NCBI GenBank assembly: GCA_022843175.1
Contig: JALHOE010000020.1
Span: forward strand, 1 to 64,000
Origin: Deltaproteobacteria bacterium
GTDB lineage: Bacteria > Myxococcota_A > Polyangia > Polyangiales > JADJMO01
DNA length: 64,000 nt
Direction: 5' to 3'
Part shown: one piece after another, positions 52,479 to 64,000 of the stretch
How positions within the stretch are numbered: position 1 is the stretch's first letter
How the letters are laid out: every line of letters begins with the position of its first letter
Position numbers and translations under genes: made by a program
Notes under the pieces: generated by a model
Told to the model about the DNA's origin: nothing
What the model saw: only the letters and a program-made list of their open reading frames with translations
Databases searched by the model: none

Positions 52479-53855
52479 ATGATGCGCGCACACGTTCGCT
52501 TTGCTTCTGTGTTCGTTCTCGGTGCTGCCATTTCGGTCGGCTGCGGCGGCGGTAGCGGCGGCACGGGCGAGGAGGTCGAGACCGGCCTCGTCGAGGACAC
52601 CTCCACCGATACCAGCGGCGGCGAGGTTGAGATCGACAGCGGCGCGGAGGACAGCTTCAACCCGATGCTCGACACCGGGAGCGAGGCCGCGCCCGACACG
52701 TCGGTCCCTGACACGGCCCCCGAGGCAACGCCGGACGTCGATGTGGACAGCGGCACGCCCGACACCGGCACGCCCGACACCGGCACGCCCGACACCGGCA
52801 CGCCCGATACGGGGCCGCCCGACACCGGCCCGGTCGACACCGGCCCGGCCTGCGTGGTCGGCGCGCCGTGCGACGACGGCGACAAGTGCTTCACCGGCAA
52901 GACGCTCAACGCGGCGTGCGCCTGCGGCGGCGGCACCGCCGTCGTGTGCAACGACTCGAACACCTGCACCACCGACACCTGCGAGACGGCCACCGGCTGC
53001 AAGTACACCAACGTCGGCGACGGCACCTCGTGCGGCGCGGGCAAGAAGTGCAGCGCGGGTGTCTGTGCGGACCTCTGCACGGTCGGCGCCGCGTGCGACG
53101 ACGCGAACACCTGCACCACCGGCGAGACATTCGACGCAACCTGCGCGTGCACGGGCGGCACCGCCAACACGTGCGACGACTCCAACGTCTGCACCACCGA
53201 TTCGTGCAATCCGACGACAGGATGCTCGAATGCGCCGGTCGCGGAGGGCACGATGTGCGCGGCGGGCAAGGTGTGCAAGTCCGGAGGCTGCGTCGATCCG
53301 ACGGCAAGCCTTCCCACGCTGAACATCGTCAGCCCCACCGAGGGACAGAAGATCCAGTTCATCACGGGTACGAGCTGTCAGAGCATCAGCACCAGCATCG
53401 CGTACACGGCGCCGAATGGGTTCGGTCAGATGCGTTGGCGCTTCGTGGTTCCCTCGTCGACGAACGTCGGTGGGTTGAAGACCTGCAGCGGTCTTCCGGC
53501 CTACGGCTACTTCATGGACGCTCCGATGTACGACGGCTCGTTGGGCGGCACGTTCACCGAGGCCGTCTCGACCGCCGGCATCTACAGCGGGCCGTCGGGC
53601 ACCGGGCGCTGGTGGTGGTGCACGACTCCGGGCACCGGCGGCATGTCGAAGGTGAGCCTCAACCCGACGACGAGCGTCGCACCAGGCGCTCCCGGCGACG
53701 CATTCTCCACGCTCTCGAACTACTGTTACTGGAAGGGAATCCCCGGCGCGGCTGCGCCGGCGACCGGCCAGTGGACGCTGGAGGTCGAGTTGCGTGACAA
53801 GAGCGGCAACATCGTGACCGCTTCTCGTAAATTCTGGCTGCATAGCGCGCCCTGA
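52479..53855 (+). CDS. stalked Cys-rich lipoprotein with tandem repeats
   Basis: A 458-residue exported protein. The signal ends in ISVGC, followed by Gly/Ser, giving a likely lipoprotein (ATG at 52479 or 52482). An acidic stalk (about 27-124) includes GTPDT pentapeptide repeats. Two Cys-rich modules follow (about 125-275) with the pattern CDD-x-N-x-CTT/CDDSNVCTTDSC, like myxobacterial EGF/TIL-type modules. The C-terminal 170 residues are a probable beta-sandwich (NIVSPTEGQKIQF). It is 15 bp upstream of the MYXO-CTERM-type gene and likely co-transcribed. Ligand unknown. Confidence 0.75.
   Translation: MMRAHVRFASVFVLGAAISVGCGGGSGGTGEEVETGLVEDTSTDTSGGEVEIDSGAEDSFNPMLDTGSEAAPDTSVPDTAPEATPDVDVDSGTPDTGTPDTGTPDTGTPDTGPPDTGPVDTGPACVVGAPCDDGDKCFTGKTLNAACACGGGTAVVCNDSNTCTTDTCETATGCKYTNVGDGTSCGAGKKCSAGVCADLCTVGAACDDANTCTTGETFDATCACTGGTANTCDDSNVCTTDSCNPTTGCSNAPVAEGTMCAAGKVCKSGGCVDPTASLPTLNIVSPTEGQKIQFITGTSCQSISTSIAYTAPNGFGQMRWRFVVPSSTNVGGLKTCSGLPAYGYFMDAPMYDGSLGGTFTEAVSTAGIYSGPSGTGRWWWCTTPGTGGMSKVSLNPTTSVAPGAPGDAFSTLSNYCYWKGIPGAAAPATGQWTLEVELRDKSGNIVTASRKFWLHSAP
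52752..52850 (+). repeat. 15-bp tandem coding repeats (GTPDT)
   Basis: Three identical copies of GGCACGCCCGACACC start at 52752, 52767 and 52782; degenerate copies continue to about 52850. All are in frame and encode a Thr/Pro/Asp stalk. Slippage would change stalk length without a frameshift. Confidence 0.8.
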
Positions 53856-53870: not shown

Positions 53871-55010
53871 ATGCGATCCGTTCGGCAATTTCTTGGAACG
53901 CTCGGCGTCGCGGCCGCGACCCTGTTCGCGACGGCTGCGTACGCGCCCCGTGCAGCCGCCGCGCCCGGCACCTGCAAGTGCAACTCCGGCTGTCACGCCA
54001 ACCCCGGTCAGTGCGTGAAGGGGGCCGCCTGTAACGTCGGCTACGCGCCGTCGTGCGGGTATCGCGATCCCGACGGTGGTGCTTCCGAATGCCCGAAGGT
54101 CGGCTACATCTCCTGCAACGGCGAGTGCAGCTGCCAGCCCATCCCCGGCTTCTGCGAGACGATCGGCGGCGCGGAGTTCTGCGACGCCGGGCCCGAGCCG
54201 ACGCCGGACACCTCCGTGCCCGACACCTTCGTGCCCGACACCTTCGTGCCCGACACCTTCGTGCCCGACACCTTCGTGCCCGACACCTTCGTGCTCGACA
54301 CGACGGTCGTCGACACGTTCGTTCCCGACACGTTCGTCCCGCCGGACACCTTCGTCCCTCCGGACACCTTCGTTCCGCCGGACACCTTCGTTCCGCCGGA
54401 CACCTTCGTTCCGCCGGACACCTTCGTTCCGCCGGACACCGCGCCCCCCGTCGACTCCTGCGTTCCGCTCGAGTGCCCGCCGGGCACCAAGGCGATCGCA
54501 GTCCCCGGCGAGTGCGATCCCTTCTGTTCCCAGCCGTGCGGCTCGGGTGAGTTCAAGTGCTCGGGCCTCGTCGGCACCGAGTGCAAAGAGGGCTTCTGCG
54601 TCCCGAAGTGCCTCACCACGGGCTGCGCCGACTGTAAGAAGTGCAGCCTCGGCGACGGCCTCTGCTTCGACGACCCCGCGTCCTGCGCGGACGGCGGCAC
54701 GCTCCCCGACGGCGCTCCGATCGGTGACGGCGCCACGCTCCCCGATGGCGCTCCGATCGGCGACGGCGGGGTCGATCCCGACGGGACCACTGGCGACGGT
54801 GGCACCAACCCCGACGGTACGGTCGATCCGGACGCGAGCTCCGGCTCCGACACCGGTGACATCTTCGGCCAGCCCGAGGTCACGCCGGAGACCGCCACCC
54901 AGGGCGGCTGCGGGTGCGCGGTTCCCGGCAACAACACCGACACCACGCTGATGGCGGTCGCGGGCGCGGCTGCGCTGGCGCTGGTGGTCGCTCGACGCCG
55001 CCGCAAGTAA
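53871..55010 (+). CDS. stalked surface protein with MYXO-CTERM-type anchor
   Basis: A 379-residue exported protein. The signal peptide (about 1-31) ends AAAAPG. A Cys-rich head (about 35-105) is followed by a repeat stalk (about 116-191) of VPDTF and VPPDTF units, a second Cys-rich part (about 194-268), then a Gly/Asp stretch with TLPDGAPIGDG repeats. The C-terminus has GGCGC, a helix (LMAVAGAAALALVV) and RRRRK, the myxobacterial sorting/anchor signal. A long rigid stalk holding binding heads off the cell is the obvious model. Confidence 0.85.
   Translation: MRSVRQFLGTLGVAAATLFATAAYAPRAAAAPGTCKCNSGCHANPGQCVKGAACNVGYAPSCGYRDPDGGASECPKVGYISCNGECSCQPIPGFCETIGGAEFCDAGPEPTPDTSVPDTFVPDTFVPDTFVPDTFVPDTFVLDTTVVDTFVPDTFVPPDTFVPPDTFVPPDTFVPPDTFVPPDTFVPPDTAPPVDSCVPLECPPGTKAIAVPGECDPFCSQPCGSGEFKCSGLVGTECKEGFCVPKCLTTGCADCKKCSLGDGLCFDDPASCADGGTLPDGAPIGDGATLPDGAPIGDGGVDPDGTTGDGGTNPDGTVDPDASSGSDTGDIFGQPEVTPETATQGGCGCAVPGNNTDTTLMAVAGAAALALVVARRRRK
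54216..54443 (+). repeat. 15-bp and 18-bp tandem coding repeats (VPDTF / VPPDTF)
   Basis: Five identical GTGCCCGACACCTTC units run from 54216 to 54290, then three diverged units to 54335. Six 18-bp units of the type GTTCCGCCGGACACCTTC follow to 54443, three of them identical. All stay in frame, so copy-number change would only alter stalk length. Confidence 0.85.
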
Positions 55011-55047: not shown

Positions 55048-55320
55048 ATGAACTCGCGGGCGGGTCGTCGAACTTTTGTGCGCGCTGATCTGATCCTCAC
55101 CGTTGCGCTCGCGGCCGTGGCCGCGTCGTGGTTCACGCTGCACGTCGCGTTGAGCGTGGGGCTCTTGCGGCGTCCTCCGCGCTGGCGGGGGCTGGTCGGG
55201 TTCGTCGTCGCGCCGCTCGCGCCCGTCTTCGGGTTCACTGCCCGCCTGCGCGTGCGCAGCGCGCTGTGGATCGTGCTCGCCGTCGCGTACGCGGTGCTGC
55301 GCTTCCGCGCTTACGCCTGA
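55048..55320 (+). CDS. small hydrophobic membrane protein
   Basis: A 90-residue ORF with two to three membrane helices (about 14-34, 48-62 and 70-85) separated by Arg-rich loops, in keeping with the positive-inside rule. It has no family match I recognise. It starts 37 bp after the stalked surface gene, and its stop overlaps the convergent nucleotidyltransferase gene by 10 bp. CGACCCGC...GCGGGTCG around its start could form a hairpin, which may instead be a terminator for the upstream gene. Confidence 0.55.
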   Translation: MNSRAGRRTFVRADLILTVALAAVAASWFTLHVALSVGLLRRPPRWRGLVGFVVAPLAPVFGFTARLRVRSALWIVLAVAYAVLRFRAYA

Positions 55321-56687
55321 CGCGCCTTGGTCTCGGGGAGGGTCGGCAGGAGCTCGGCCGCGCGCGCGAGCAGCAGCGCCGGGTCGTTGCGCGACGGATC
55401 CTCGAGCACGTCCTCGAGCAGGCGCTCGAGCAGCATGCCCATCTTCGGGCTCGGCTTCATGCCGAGCTGCTGCATCAGCTCGCGGCCGCCGATGGCGAGG
55501 TCGCGCGTCGTGAGCGCCTCGCCGCGGGCGAGGATGTCGGCCACGCGCGACTTGAGCTCCACGAGCGGTGCGAGGTCGGCCGCGGCGTCGCGGTCCTTGC
55601 CGCGGATGTCGGCCTCGTTGAGCGCGTAGAGATCCTCGAGCCGCTCCTTGCCGATTCGACGGATCCATCGCCGCACCGCCGCGTCGGTCCAGGTTCCGTC
55701 GTAGCAGACGAGGTGGTGACGAACGAGGTGGGTGACGCGCTCGCGCTCGTCGTTGGAGAAGCGCAGGCGCGCGAGGATCGGCTCGACCATCTCGGCACCG
55801 AGCCGCTCGTGCTCGTAGAAGGTGTAGTCCTGCGTCTTCTCGCTGAAGGCGCGGGTCTTCGGCTTGCCGATGTCGTGCAGCAGCGCAGAGAGGCGCAGCA
55901 CCGAGTCGCCCGCCGCGGCGTCGACGCAGGCCATCGCGTGGCCCCACACGTCGTAGCGGTGCCACTTGTTTTGATCGCACCCGACCTGGGGCAGGAGCTC
56001 CGGCGCGCTCACCTCCAACAGCCCATGCTCGCGCATGACCTCGAACGCTCGCGACGGCGCGCGCGCCTTGAGCGCCTTGAGCCACTCGTCGCGCACGCGC
56101 TCCGCCGAGACCTTGCGGAAGGTGTCGAGGGTGGGGCGGATCGCCGCCGCCGTGGCCGGATCGAGGTCGAAGTCGAGCGCGGCGACGAACCGCGCGGCCC
56201 GGAGCGCGCGCAGGCCGTCCTCGGAGAACCGGTCGAACGCAGAGCCGACCGCGCGGAGCACCCGACGCTCGAGGTCCTTCTGGCCGTCGAACGGATCGAT
56301 GATGTGCGCGTCGAGCGGCTCGAGCGCGATCGCATTAACGGTGAAATCGCGTCGCGCCAGGTCGGCGGTGATGTCGTCGACGAACACCACGCTGTCGGGG
56401 CGGCGACCGTCGCTGTACGTGGTCTCGCCGCGGAGCGTTGTCACCTCGTAGCTCTCGCCCTCGTGGTGCACCGTGACCGTGCCGTGCTGGATGCCGGTGG
56501 GGATCACGCGACGGAACGCGCGCTGTACCTCTTCGGGGCGCGCGCTGGTGGCGATGTCCCAGTCGGACACCTTCGCCGAGCGCAGCAGATCGCGTACGCA
56601 GCCGCCGACGATCCACGCGCGATGGCCCTTCTCGCGCAGCCGCGCGCAGACGGCGAGCACCCCCCGGGGGATCGCGTAGGCGGTCAT
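55311..56687 (-). CDS. CCA-adding / poly(A) polymerase family nucleotidyltransferase
   Basis: A 458-residue class II nucleotidyltransferase. The head has AWIVGGCVRDLLR and the metal-binding SDWDIATSA (D-x-D). Next come RRDFTVNAIA and the signature around DRFSEDGLRALRAARF. An HD domain (LLHDIGKPKTR) lies in the C-terminal half. CCA-adding enzymes with an HD domain repair tRNA 3' ends; close relatives are poly(A) polymerases. Motifs visible by eye do not separate the two. If no other copy exists in the genome, the CCA role is more likely. Confidence 0.9.
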   Translation of the reverse strand: MTAYAIPRGVLAVCARLREKGHRAWIVGGCVRDLLRSAKVSDWDIATSARPEEVQRAFRRVIPTGIQHGTVTVHHEGESYEVTTLRGETTYSDGRRPDSVVFVDDITADLARRDFTVNAIALEPLDAHIIDPFDGQKDLERRVLRAVGSAFDRFSEDGLRALRAARFVAALDFDLDPATAAAIRPTLDTFRKVSAERVRDEWLKALKARAPSRAFEVMREHGLLEVSAPELLPQVGCDQNKWHRYDVWGHAMACVDAAAGDSVLRLSALLHDIGKPKTRAFSEKTQDYTFYEHERLGAEMVEPILARLRFSNDERERVTHLVRHHLVCYDGTWTDAAVRRWIRRIGKERLEDLYALNEADIRGKDRDAAADLAPLVELKSRVADILARGEALTTRDLAIGGRELMQQLGMKPSPKMGMLLERLLEDVLEDPSRNDPALLLARAAELLPTLPETKARQA

Positions 56688-56699
56688 TCGTGCACCTGC

Positions 56700-58622
56700 T
56701 CAGGTGATGTTGTAGACGGGGCCGCCGGGGGTGCGACGTGTTGCCTCGAGCAGATCTGCGCCCCGCGCGTGCTCGCCGGTGGCCTCGACGACGACCGCGC
56801 CGACCTCGACGCCGGGCGGCATCTGCGAGCGCATTTGCGTGAGCACCTGCTCGACGAGCGGCTTGGCGATCTCGGCCGTTTGCCCGACGAGGGCGACCGC
56901 GAACGAGCCGACGCCGGTGAGGCCCGCGGTGCATGCCGTGAGCGACAGGAGCAGCATGTCGAACAGATCGACCGCAGCCTTGGCCGCACGACGAAGCGCC
57001 TGCATCTCCTGGATCGTCAGCCGGCCCTGGCCGTCTCGGGCCGGGGTGCGGAGGTAGAACCACGCCAGGGTCAGCGGGTAGCCGGCCCAGCGCGCGAACG
57101 CGAGATCGCCGTCGAGCGCCTGCCGGAAGGCCTCTTCGTGGATGAGGCCCGTGAGCCCGTCGCGCGAGCGAAGGAACTGGAGCGCCTTCTCGTGGAGGTT
57201 GGAGGCCTCGCGGAACGACACCAGCTTGACGCGGAGCTCGCCGACCATGGCCTCGTTGCCGTGGAGCAGCGTGATCGCCTGCTGGCGCTCGTAGCTTCCC
57301 TCGCCGTAAACGCCGTTGGTCGAGGGGCGCGGCTCTTTCGCGTCCTCGAGGAGCCAGCAGCCGTTGTTCTGGAAGGCGAGGACCGAGTGCACCGCGCTGA
57401 TGGTGGCCTCGGGCACGACCAGGTCGACGTTGATGCGAGAGCCCGGCACGCTCGGCGCGCGACCGAGCACGAGCTTCGTCTTGTCCAACGGGAGCACGCG
57501 GCCGATCAGCTCGCGCGCGTTCGATGCATAGGTAATCAATAGACCCTGCGCGTCGGGTCGGAACGGCGTGGCCGAGCCGCGATAGGGCGGGTTGGCGCCC
57601 GGATCGATGCGCTCGCGGGCCACCTGCAGCGGGTTGGTCGCGACGGTGTTCGGGTTGAAGAAGCGGAGGTGCCGCGCTTGCGGGCGGCGCGTCGGGTCCT
57701 TCCAGAGCAGACGGTGGATCTGCTTGAGCTCGTCGGTGGCGAGGCCCGGAGGGATGCCGAACGGGAGCTGCTTCTCGATGGGGTGCGACGGCGGGTGATG
57801 ACCGGGCTCGGGCACCTTGGCCGACAGCATCTCCCAGATCGTCATGCCGAGCGCGTAGAGGTCGTCCTCGACGCTGGCGCCACCCTTCTCGAGGCGCTCG
57901 GGCGACATGTAATTGGGGGTGCCGCCGTCGGCGCCCTTCTTCTCGCCGCGCATGGTGGCGACGGTACGGGCGCGCTCTTTGGCGAAGCCGAAGTCCACGA
58001 TGTACGCGGAGCCGGTGCCGCGGTCGACCATGACGTTGCCGGGCTTGAGGTCGCCGTGGACGATGCCCGACGCGTGGATCGCGGCGAGGCCAGCGGCCAC
58101 GTCGCGCGCGATGCGGCGCCACTCGTCGGCGCTGACGCCGCCCATCCGCTTCTTCTCGCGGATCCATTGGTGGAGCGTGACCCCGTCGACGAAGTGCATC
58201 GTGACGACGGGGCCGAACGGCGATTGGTGCAGGTCGTGGACGCGGGCGACGTTCGGGTGATTCACCGAGCGTGCCAGCTCGACCTCTTTGCGGAGGGCCT
58301 CGTCGTCGCCGGGGAGGCGGGTGTCGCGACGGACGACCTTCACCGCGACCGCGGACGAACCGAAGTTGCGGTCGCGCGCGAGGAACACCTCTCCCATGCC
58401 GCCCTTGCCGAGCGACCGGACGATCTCGAAGCGGTCCACGAGGACCATGCCCTCGCGAACCTCTGCTTCTTTCTCCTTGAACATCCCCATGACCCGGACC
58501 CGATCGGAGCACTCAGCGCACGAAGCGACGTGGGTGCTTACTTCCGAATCGCTACGCGGGTCGACGCCATCGAGCAGAAGCTCTACGACCCGAGCACACG
58601 GCCCGGCAGCGCGAGACGTCAC
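56700..58622 (-). CDS. Ser/Thr kinase-FHA-degenerate GGDEF fusion
   Basis: A 640-residue regulator with four parts. Residues 24-42 hold an anti-sigma-like zinc motif H-x3-C-x2-C (HVASCAEC). The kinase (about 62-350) has GKGGMGEVF, Lys95, HGDLKPGN (189-196, Gly replacing the usual Arg of HRD) and DFG (210-212). An FHA-like domain (about 385-470) has LVLGRAPSVPGSRINVDL and ISAVHSVLAF. The C-terminus resembles a GGDEF fold (RDGLTGLIHEEAFRQAL), but the catalytic loop reads GVGSFAVALVG, so no diguanylate cyclase activity is expected. The start is GTG. No membrane helix is seen. The FHA domain probably recognises phosphothreonine made by this or another kinase. Confidence 0.88.
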   Translation of the reverse strand: MTSRAAGPCARVVELLLDGVDPRSDSEVSTHVASCAECSDRVRVMGMFKEKEAEVREGMVLVDRFEIVRSLGKGGMGEVFLARDRNFGSSAVAVKVVRRDTRLPGDDEALRKEVELARSVNHPNVARVHDLHQSPFGPVVTMHFVDGVTLHQWIREKKRMGGVSADEWRRIARDVAAGLAAIHASGIVHGDLKPGNVMVDRGTGSAYIVDFGFAKERARTVATMRGEKKGADGGTPNYMSPERLEKGGASVEDDLYALGMTIWEMLSAKVPEPGHHPPSHPIEKQLPFGIPPGLATDELKQIHRLLWKDPTRRPQARHLRFFNPNTVATNPLQVARERIDPGANPPYRGSATPFRPDAQGLLITYASNARELIGRVLPLDKTKLVLGRAPSVPGSRINVDLVVPEATISAVHSVLAFQNNGCWLLEDAKEPRPSTNGVYGEGSYERQQAITLLHGNEAMVGELRVKLVSFREASNLHEKALQFLRSRDGLTGLIHEEAFRQALDGDLAFARWAGYPLTLAWFYLRTPARDGQGRLTIQEMQALRRAAKAAVDLFDMLLLSLTACTAGLTGVGSFAVALVGQTAEIAKPLVEQVLTQMRSQMPPGVEVGAVVVEATGEHARGADLLEATRRTPGGPVYNIT

Positions 58623-61075: not shown

Positions 61076-64000
61076 TCAGCCGCGCGCGACCGCTTCGAGC
61101 GCCTGGTGCGCCACCGCGACGCCCTCGTTCCAGCCGATCGCCTCGGCGAGGGTCTGCGCGCTGCGATAGCTGTCCTCGGCCTCTTCGCGCCGCCCGAGCC
61201 TTGCGAGGTAGTGCCCGAGGTTCACGTGAATGCGCGCCTGCGCCATGCGATCGCCGGCCTCGACGGCGAGCCGGAGCGCGCGCGTCGACTCCGCCGACGC
61301 CGCGCGAAAGTCGTCGCGCTTGGCCGCGATGTGCGCGAGGTTCGCGAGCGCGCGCGCGGCGGCCCCGGCGTCCTGCACCTTCTCGGCCTGCGCGAGCGAG
61401 CCGCGGAAGTAGTCGGCGGCGCGCACCGCGTCGTCGCGGCGGAGATAGAGGCGACCAACGGCGTTGAGGAGGTTCGCGAGCCGCAGCCGCAGCGCGCCCT
61501 CGCTGGTGCCGATCGACGTGCCGCGGGTGACGCCCTCGGCGAGCTTGGACGTCATCTCGAGGCCGGTCAGCGCCGTGGCGAGCGCCTTCTGCGTCTCGTT
61601 GGCCTCTTCGAGCGCGGTCGTTAGATCGAGGTACAAATCGCACGCCAGGTCGGCGTCGCGGCTCTCGAGCGCGCGATCGAGCGCGCGTTGGAGGAACTGC
61701 GCGGCCACCCCCGGTCGGCCCGCGCGGCGGTTGGCGGCGCCCCGGATCCGATCGGCGCGCGCCGCGAGCGCGCCCCTCTGCGCCGGCTCGATCGCGAGCT
61801 GCTCGAGCATCGCCACCGCGCCGTCGACGAGCTGCACGTCGCCCACGTGCGACAGCGCGTCTGCGTAGGCGAGCATCAGCTTGGCGGCGCTCGCGGGATC
61901 GAGCGCGGCGAGGTGGTTGGTCGCGCGCTTCAGCTGCGCGGCCGCGGCCTTCGCTTCGCCGCGCGCGAGCAGCTCCCCGGCGGCGTCCTGCAGACGGGCG
62001 ACCGCGGGGCCGATCTCGCCGGCGAGCTCCCAGTGGCGCGCGAGCTCCTCGAGCGGCACCGGATCGCTCTTGGTCGCGGCGCGGATCGCCTCCCAGCGCT
62101 CGGCGAGCGCGCCGTGCAGCGTCTTGCGTTCGGCGAGCGGGATGGTGTCGTAGAGCACCTCGCGGACGCCGTCGTTGGCGAAGCCGACCTTGCGCGCCCC
62201 CGCCTCGGTGCGCGCCCGCTCCTCGAGGAGCCCGCGCTCGAGGAGGTCGCGCACCGCGGTGTCGACGTCGATCTCGACGCCGGCGAGGGCCTGCAGGTCG
62301 GAGAGATCGATCTCGTTGCCCGCGACCGACGCGAGCAACAGCGCGCGCTGCGCGTCGGGATCGAGCGAGCGCAGGCGCGCCTCGACGAGCCCGCGCAGGC
62401 CCTCCGCGACGAGCTTCGCGCCCTCGGCGAGGACGTATCGCCCGGCGTCGAGGACCAACCCGCCCGCGCCGCGCAGCGCCTCGACGATCGACTCGAGGAA
62501 GAGCGGATTGCCGCCCGCGCGTTGGAGGATCTGCTGCGCGACGCTCGGCGGCACCTCGCCGTCGGGGAGCATCGACTCGAGTAGCCTCGTGGCCGGCTCG
62601 GCGCCGAGCGGGCCGAGCGTGATCCGCTTGAAGTGCGGCGCGTTCCAGTCGCTCCAGATGCCCGCGCGGGCGCTCAGGATGAGCATCGACGGGCGCTTGG
62701 CGATCGCGGCGGCGAGCTGGGCGAGGAGGGCGGCGGAGCCGGAGTCGATCCACTGCAGATCCTCAATGATGATCCCGATGTCGCCCTTGCGGAGCGCTGC
62801 GTTGATGAAGTTGCGGATCGCCGCGGAGCCCTCGCGCGCGACGACCTCGGGCGGGTTGTCGCCGGGGCTCGTGAGCCCTGCGGCCTGCCGCACGCCGGTG
62901 GACGCGGAGCTGCCCGCCGACGTCTGCCCAGAGCGGCCGAGGAGCAGGCCGACGAGGTGCTGCTGATCGGCGGCGCCGAGGCCGAGGCCCGCGAGGGAGC
63001 CACGATCGCCCGCGAGCGTGCGCACGACCTCGGGCGGCGCGCCGCGGCCGACGCCGGTGTAGACCAACACCAGATCGCGGAAGGTGCCGAGCTGCGTCGC
63101 GCCCGTGGGGCGGCACGCCACGCGGAACCAGCGGATGTTCATGTCACCCATCCGCTTGGTGGCCTCGCGGATGAGCGCGGTCTTACCCATGCCCGCCTCG
63201 CCGCGGATCGCGACGACCTGCCCCTTGCCCTGCTCGAAGGCCTCGCGCGCGGCGGACACGATCTGCTCGATCTCGGCGTCGCGGCCGACGAACGGTCGCA
63301 GCGCGCCCGACACGAACTGGTGCGAGAGATCCTCGCGCACCGAGTACAGACCGCCGCGTGCGGGCGTGGTGGTGAAGCCCTCGCCGACGCGACCCTTGAT
63401 GGACTCGTCGAGGAGGATCTCTCCCGCGCGCGCGAGCTCGGCGTTTCGACCGACGGTCTGCGCCGCGGCGCCGAGGACCGTGGGCCCGTTCGCGCCGGGC
63501 GTGACGAGGAAGACGCCGCTCGCGATCGCCGCGCGGAACCACCGGGCGCTCGCGGCCTCGCGCTTGATCGCAAACGCCGCCTCGACCGCGCGCGCGACGA
63601 GCGTCTCGGCCTCCTCGGCGGTGGCGTCGATGCCGAAGAGCGCGGTGACCCGCGTGCCGCCGGCGCCCTGGATCAGCGCCCGATACTGCGCGAGCATCCG
63701 CGAGACGAGCTCGAAGCGATCGCCGATGCGACCGGCGAGCTCCTCGGGATCGCCCGCGTCGTCGCTGCCGATGAGATCGATCGCGAGCACCGAGAGCGTG
63801 CGCCGCTCCGACGCGGCCTCGCTCTGCGCGCGCCGCAGGTCGCCGAGCAGGCGGTCGGGCAGAATGCCGGAGAGGCCGGCGAGGCTGTTGTTCTCGGGGG
63901 CGCGCACCGGCGCGCGCCGCTGCGTGGCGCCGGCGAGGACGGCGCCGCAGCTCGGACAGAAGCGCGAGCTCGGATCGACCGGCTGGCCGCACGAGCGGCA
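61076..64000 (-). CDS. zinc-ribbon/cyclase-like/AAA/TPR regulator (5' end outside window)
   Basis: The frame is open to the window edge. A GTG at 63907 is a possible start, but the bases beyond it encode CRSCGQPVDPSSRFCPSCG, a zinc ribbon, so the gene begins upstream. About 975 codons are visible. Part 2 resembles a class III nucleotide-cyclase homology domain (SVLAIDLIGSDD) without the usual metal Asp pair, so it is probably inactive. Part 3 is an AAA/ORC-type ATPase with GEAGMGKTALI as Walker A and IIIEDLQWIDSGSA as Walker B. Part 4 is a C-terminal series of TPR-like helix pairs. This matches large cyclase-ATPase-TPR regulators of myxobacteria. No HTH is visible. It probably senses protein partners through the TPRs. 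Confidence 0.85.
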   Translation of the reverse strand, partial: CRSCGQPVDPSSRFCPSCGAVLAGATQRRAPVRAPENNSLAGLSGILPDRLLGDLRRAQSEAASERRTLSVLAIDLIGSDDAGDPEELAGRIGDRFELVSRMLAQYRALIQGAGGTRVTALFGIDATAEEAETLVARAVEAAFAIKREAASARWFRAAIASGVFLVTPGANGPTVLGAAAQTVGRNAELARAGEILLDESIKGRVGEGFTTTPARGGLYSVREDLSHQFVSGALRPFVGRDAEIEQIVSAAREAFEQGKGQVVAIRGEAGMGKTALIREATKRMGDMNIRWFRVACRPTGATQLGTFRDLVLVYTGVGRGAPPEVVRTLAGDRGSLAGLGLGAADQQHLVGLLLGRSGQTSAGSSASTGVRQAAGLTSPGDNPPEVVAREGSAAIRNFINAALRKGDIGIIIEDLQWIDSGSAALLAQLAAAIAKRPSMLILSARAGIWSDWNAPHFKRITLGPLGAEPATRLLESMLPDGEVPPSVAQQILQRAGGNPLFLESIVEALRGAGGLVLDAGRYVLAEGAKLVAEGLRGLVEARLRSLDPDAQRALLLASVAGNEIDLSDLQALAGVEIDVDTAVRDLLERGLLEERARTEAGARKVGFANDGVREVLYDTIPLAERKTLHGALAERWEAIRAATKSDPVPLEELARHWELAGEIGPAVARLQDAAGELLARGEAKAAAAQLKRATNHLAALDPASAAKLMLAYADALSHVGDVQLVDGAVAMLEQLAIEPAQRGALAARADRIRGAANRRAGRPGVAAQFLQRALDRALESRDADLACDLYLDLTTALEEANETQKALATALTGLEMTSKLAEGVTRGTSIGTSEGALRLRLANLLNAVGRLYLRRDDAVRAADYFRGSLAQAEKVQDAGAAARALANLAHIAAKRDDFRAASAESTRALRLAVEAGDRMAQARIHVNLGHYLARLGRREEAEDSYRSAQTLAEAIGWNEGVAVAHQALEAVARG

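Follow-up and report, generated by a model that had tools for sequence, protein, structure and literature searches.

In the Bdellovibrio bacteriovorus diguanylate cyclase DgcB (Bd0742), an FHA domain precedes the GGDEF domain, and the available text of PMC6733907 describes this FHA domain as binding the protein's own phosphorylated tail through a T14 peptide, with the authors stressing V17 at the +3 position. The same text mentions in one sentence Sorangium cellulosum BE21_29150, a 974-aa protein ordered kinase, tail, FHA, and GGDEF. SgmT of Myxococcus xanthus joins a histidine kinase to a C-terminal dead GGDEF domain with an intact I-site, with no FHA domain in the portion of PMC3509222 consulted. 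A Clostridium thermocellum protein of 1826 aa combines a Ser/Thr kinase, TPR repeats, and a C-terminal GGDEF domain, again with no FHA domain reported in the accessible part of PMC1262709.

We analyzed a 64,000-nucleotide stretch of myxobacterial DNA, hereafter the window, which encodes a 640-aa protein with the following parts.

56700..58622, minus strand: whole gene, kinase-FHA-pseudoGGDEF, 640 aa (GTG start, single open frame)
58509..58598, minus strand: putative zf-HC2-type zinc motif, residues 9-38 (C9, H31, C35, C38; below the Pfam cutoff)
57669..58430, minus strand: Ser/Thr kinase domain, residues 65-318, HGDLKPGN at 189-196 (Pfam, family alignment)
57624..57662, minus strand: kinase-FHA linker, residues 321-333, T329-x-x-L a candidate FHA self-ligand (alignment)
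57258..57464, minus strand: FHA domain, Pfam stretch residues 387-455 (Pfam, alignment)
56703..57170, minus strand: degenerate GGDEF domain, residues 485-640, core GVGSF at 570-574 (profiles, model, alignment)

The protein shares with DgcB an FHA domain followed by a GGDEF fold, and T329 is a candidate counterpart of the DgcB self-phosphothreonine peptide with its aliphatic +3 residue; unlike DgcB as described in PMC6733907, it has a kinase ahead of the FHA domain and has lost the acidic core and I-site. It resembles SgmT in placing a dead GGDEF domain at the C terminus of a myxobacterial kinase but, going by the description in PMC3509222, differs in kinase type, I-site, and the presence of an FHA domain. 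With the Clostridium protein of PMC1262709 it has in common the Ser/Thr kinase and C-terminal GGDEF domain, but not the length, the TPR repeats, or the reported lack of FHA. The order of parts matches the one given for BE21_29150 in PMC6733907; at 974 aa, BE21_29150 is longer than all open frames of the listed strong matches except a 1151-aa stop-to-stop frame (G131). In looking for proteins like BE21_29150 we started from 65 GGDEF matches in six related genomes and 42 in five more, 107 in all; motif screens of 24 long-frame loci picked from them (20 plus 4; eight genomes sampled) revealed no kinase-FHA-live-GGDEF protein. The initial annotation knew of no described family with this order. We likewise found no description of the kinase-FHA-pseudoGGDEF family in the open-access literature searched, but the order itself had been mentioned once, for Sorangium in the text of PMC6733907, and the FHA–GGDEF arrangement of DgcB is well described. 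Two proteins from genomes of the second family (f12, described below) also join an HRD kinase to a degenerate or weak GGDEF-like domain, without FHA, at L130:1731-3467 (plus strand; core GPSSL by eye; PF00990 E 1.2e-4, below the cutoff) and L138:3095-5002 (minus strand; core RRDTL by eye; E 9.9e-14, above the cutoff), implying that kinase–GGDEF-like fusion arose more than once or predates the family.

The protein family occurs in two families of one order. Strong homologues were found in 5 of 5 genomes of f1, to which the window belongs, and in 104 of f12, another family of the same order. Of 317 genomes in the class, 115 were hit by a family profile at 1e-4, and 109 of these hits were strong (5 f1 and 104 f12). 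In each of the six genomes with weak matches, which were left out (G034, G148, G162, G187, G253, and G254), the C-terminal profile met a GGDEF-type protein, three times an FHA–GGDEF protein; the cores were GGDEF or GGEEF in four, SGDEF in one, and AGDKF in another. Searching 144 relatives with the C-terminal domain gave 74 matches at E ≤0.001, 72 of them strong (5 f1 and 67 f12) once the weak matches in G006 and G038 were left out, and each of the 37 genomes matched at 1e-6 among 377 of the phylum belonged to f1 or f12. Genera g66, g64, and g56 hold two copies, and at least two f12 genomes (G121 and G136) gave no family match. Identity to the window protein is 85 to 95% within f1 and 49 to 54% in f12. 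For residue counts we aligned 29 rows, the window protein and 28 other loci, having dropped L031, L034, L035, L061, and L062 as duplicates and L053 as partial; loci from L078 onward are outside these counts. The order of kinase, FHA, and GGDEF-like fold noted in the initial annotation, the HGD loop, and the degenerate state of the GGDEF-like fold are real and conserved, and the kinase-FHA-degenerate GGDEF protein of 56700-58622 is confirmed as a conserved signaling protein rather than a one-off, with the zinc motif still putative.

The zinc motif appears confined to the window's family. Pfam placed zf-HC2, an anti-sigma-type zinc finger, at residues 15 to 38 below its cutoff, both with the whole protein (E 0.16) and with the N-terminal residues alone (E 0.0059; two of five members match). 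C9, H31, C35, and C38 are invariant in the five f1 members, and HxxxCxxC occurred upstream of the kinase in none of 24 f12 frames examined, which makes the motif an f1 feature. With start codons picked mechanically, the majority of f12 proteins start just ahead of the kinase.

Pfam assigned the kinase domain to residues 65 to 318 (E 1.4e-40), and the G-loop, K95, E113, HGD, DFG, and PE are invariant in all 29 members, with motif roles assigned by eye. All 29 therefore have the fold, catalytic Lys, Glu, and Asp, and DFG of PF00069 Ser/Thr kinases, as HGD retains the catalytic Asp. A pseudokinase reading of HGD was rejected because the catalytic Asp, Lys, and Glu and the DFG motif do not vary. 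Loss of the HRD Arg marks a non-RD kinase, a type that fits the activation loop of f12 proteins, which by eye contains few phosphorylatable residues. The conserved residues thus suggest a kinase that is probably active and non-RD. Within the window's genome (G000; 9.75 Mb), at least 151 kinase matches to the 640-aa protein were found, and HGD was rare, occurring in 2 of the best 30 of them with this protein included; HGD is also present in L024. Another kinase match lies just outside the window at G000:C20:64214-64915.

The FHA domain scored above the curated Pfam cutoff (PF00498; residues 387 to 455; E 2.1e-4), with the GR, SxxH, and NG motifs in place; all 29 members share G387, R388, S409, H412, N436, and G437. 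Phosphothreonine recognition, as initially proposed, is therefore supported as a predicted function. In the linker, T329 is present in 27 of 29 members, the remaining two (L057 and L060) having Thr one residue earlier, and L, I, or V occupies the +3 position in all 29. By analogy with DgcB, T329 is a candidate phosphothreonine ligand for the FHA domain of its own chain; its conservation could instead be structural.

Two results count against a GGDEF-like reading: Pfam matched GGDEF (PF00990) in none of the 29 members, and searching the C-terminal sequence against solved structures gave nothing beyond a chance hit. The family profile aligned with a GGDEF profile from the window's genome at hhalign 96.3% (score 61.9, against ≤18.9 for 50 column shuffles), the latter profile containing some partial and two spurious stretches; with an earlier profile, built from three clean sequences, the values were 95.3% and 55.6. 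When the FHA and C-terminal domains were compared together with six FHA–GGDEF proteins, hhalign reached 99.7% (score 175, against ≤22.7 for 30 shuffles) in a collinear alignment of 226 columns spanning both domains. As in DgcB, FHA directly precedes GGDEF, and this collinear homology points to a DgcB-like module behind the kinase with its cyclase dead.

A structure-model check of the C-terminal part agreed with these profiles. AlphaFold, given five sequences, produced a best model with mean pLDDT 51.2, the other four models having 31 to 35; at residues 141 to 280 of the best model, pLDDT was 63 to 82 in 11 of 14 ten-residue blocks and 44 to 50 in the other three, and the FHA half was of low confidence. 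All 12 Foldseek hits of the modeled C-terminal part at E ≤0.001 were GGDEF structures, and it superimposed on WspR (VIA Z 13.6, 3.0 Å over 139 residues) and on full-length DgcB (6hbz; Z 12.6, 4.1 Å over 148 residues). A model of modest confidence thus matches solved GGDEF domains, consistent with the GGDEF-like fold first suggested for this region, which profile comparison and structure matches both recover where PF00990 gives no hit. In f12 proteins, the chain ends by eye inside the region of the last helix. Chance resemblance to GGDEF was ruled out by the shuffles, the fold search, and the profile searches.

The signature residues for catalysis and product binding have been lost from this fold. 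The core reads G[VIP][GL][SKR]F in 28 of 29 members, with A as the first residue in the other, and neither D nor E occurs at core position 3 or 4 in any of the 29, unlike the GG(D/E)EF of diguanylate cyclases. R525, aligned with the second Asp of DxD, is present in all 29. At position 523, the counterpart of the first metal Asp, the window protein has Tyr, and with Y523 and R525 it lacks the DxD-type metal ligands that follow the first strand; since 14 of 29 members carry D or E there, not all ligands are gone in all members. An RxxD I-site five residues before the core was absent from all 29, as was any Arg at the I-site position, which sets the family apart from c-di-GMP receptors of the SgmT and PopA type. 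RxxD appears farther upstream in three members (two genera), and eight of nine GGDEF domains with a G(D/E)EF core in the window's genome have it at I-site spacing. A live cyclase and a classical I-site receptor were each ruled out at the sequence level, by the missing acidic core and by the missing RxxD at its usual spacing. The initial annotation's non-catalytic GGDEF is accordingly the predicted state of this domain, and the nucleotide sensing proposed with it finds no support here, since acidic core and usual-place RxxD are absent in 29 of 29.

In this domain, R525, R534, and R544 are invariant in all 29 members, and K or R stands at core position 4 in 23. In ten pairs, dN/dS was 0.06 to 0.28 for the pseudo-GGDEF domain, 0.08 to 0.21 for the kinase, and 0.09 to 0.44 for FHA, values that are rough because some synonymous distances are large. 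The degenerate GGDEF domain is under purifying selection. With its signature catalytic and product-binding residues gone, what was once an enzyme probably now serves the kinase in regulation or docking.

In most f12 loci, the kinase gene lies beside one for a protein of about 220 aa that belongs to no Pfam family (e.g., L109:3374-4090, minus strand, and L117:8436-9098, plus strand), and Kyte-Doolittle hydropathy, the only method used, gave one hydrophobic segment in 10 of 10. We tabulated 77 neighbor rows, 10 of them f1 (rows repeat genomes; L053 was dropped). Of the 67 f12 rows, 62 had the neighbor within the locus on the same strand; an ATG or GTG lay ≤230 bases from the kinase stop in 53 of these 62 and only far upstream in 2, and in 7 no such start was found. 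In f1, it was beside the kinase gene in none of 10 rows and lay on contigs other than that of the kinase gene in all five genomes (e.g., G000:C24:33551-34186, plus strand, within L152). A profile search of 138 relatives found the kinase in 66, the neighbor in 65, both in 63, and neither in 70, at a cutoff (E ≤1.1e-14) that was chosen after the list was seen and has G121 right at it. Co-occurrence was imperfect: G121 and G136 have the neighbor without a detected kinase, and G032, G068, and G075 have the kinase without the neighbor. Much of this pattern follows from shared descent; adjacency is the stronger argument. The f12 neighbor is probably an input, membrane anchor, or substrate.

A tRNA nucleotidyltransferase/poly(A) polymerase-like (cca) gene at window 55311-56687 (minus strand) begins 12 bases past the kinase stop, and the same order occurs in L108, the one further f1 locus compared; it was found in none of 13 f12 loci, and we therefore claim no tie to tRNA repair. 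The window also encodes an AAA_16 ATPase with TPR repeats (61076-63907, minus strand) and, inside two open frames, tandem repeats at 54203-54468 (15 bases) and 52746-52844 (18 bases), which encode DTFVP-like and DTGTP-like repeats.

The explanation we favor, and to which we give about an even chance of being correct, is that an active non-RD kinase marks linker T329, its own FHA domain reads the mark, and the pseudo-GGDEF domain serves as a dimer or docking scaffold. On this view, a cytosolic Ser/Thr kinase has been joined to an FHA–GGDEF module of the DgcB type with a dead cyclase. The kinase would phosphorylate T329 in its own linker, and phosphorylated T329 would be bound by FHA, either in the same subunit or in its partner, as DgcB FHA binds its own tail. 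The pseudo-GGDEF domain may provide a dimer or docking surface that is moved by this phosphothreonine switch and sets kinase output or location; its dimerization is an assumption based on how GGDEF proteins generally behave.

In an alternative arrangement, FHA would recruit other phosphoproteins in trans and the pseudo-GGDEF domain would pair with live cyclases, so that the kinase steers c-di-GMP synthesis elsewhere. GGDEF domains are known to act as dimers, 13 GGDEF matches (two being pieces of one region) occur in the window's genome, and FHA–GGDEF cyclases are present in related genomes. Shared neighbors of 14 loci were grouped by clustering, and in G119 a GGDEF protein lies some 13 kb away; we consider such pairing unlikely. 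Slightly less probable still is that the pseudo-GGDEF domain senses c-di-GMP or another nucleotide through a remodeled site whose ligand controls the kinase in an SgmT-like manner. The basic residues replacing the catalytic loop (R525, R534, R544, and the frequent Lys or Arg at core position 4) and the acidic residue kept at 523 in nearly half of the members would suit such a site, and the dead GGDEF domains of SgmT and CdgA are described in the available text of PMC3509222 and PMC3271064 as binding c-di-GMP; yet SgmT, according to that text of PMC3509222, uses an intact RxxD, which none of the 29 aligned members has at that spacing, against eight of nine GGDEF domains with a G(D/E)EF core in the window's genome. 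The lost acidic core and I-site might suggest that the C-terminal domain is decaying and no longer functions, but this is highly improbable given purifying selection comparable to that on the kinase, about 68% identity within f12 and 46% between f1 and f12, and the invariant new residues.

Taking our favored explanation of a self-reading kinase further, a dead cyclase may have been rebuilt around a new, invariant Arg-rich site and may now regulate a non-RD kinase able to read its own phosphothreonine. Joined by a membrane protein inherited along with it, the kinase would make up a transmembrane pathway not yet described, belonging to the myxobacterial order in question. We regard this proposal in its full extent as speculative and rather doubtful. 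With a writer (the kinase), a mark (the candidate linker Thr), and a reader (FHA) in one chain beside a c-di-GMP-free GGDEF fold, the protein would also put to the test the proposal made in the available text of PMC6733907 that FHA–GGDEF proteins receive phosphate from a dedicated kinase, and it offers a compact test case for how a second-messenger enzyme may become a protein-kinase regulator.
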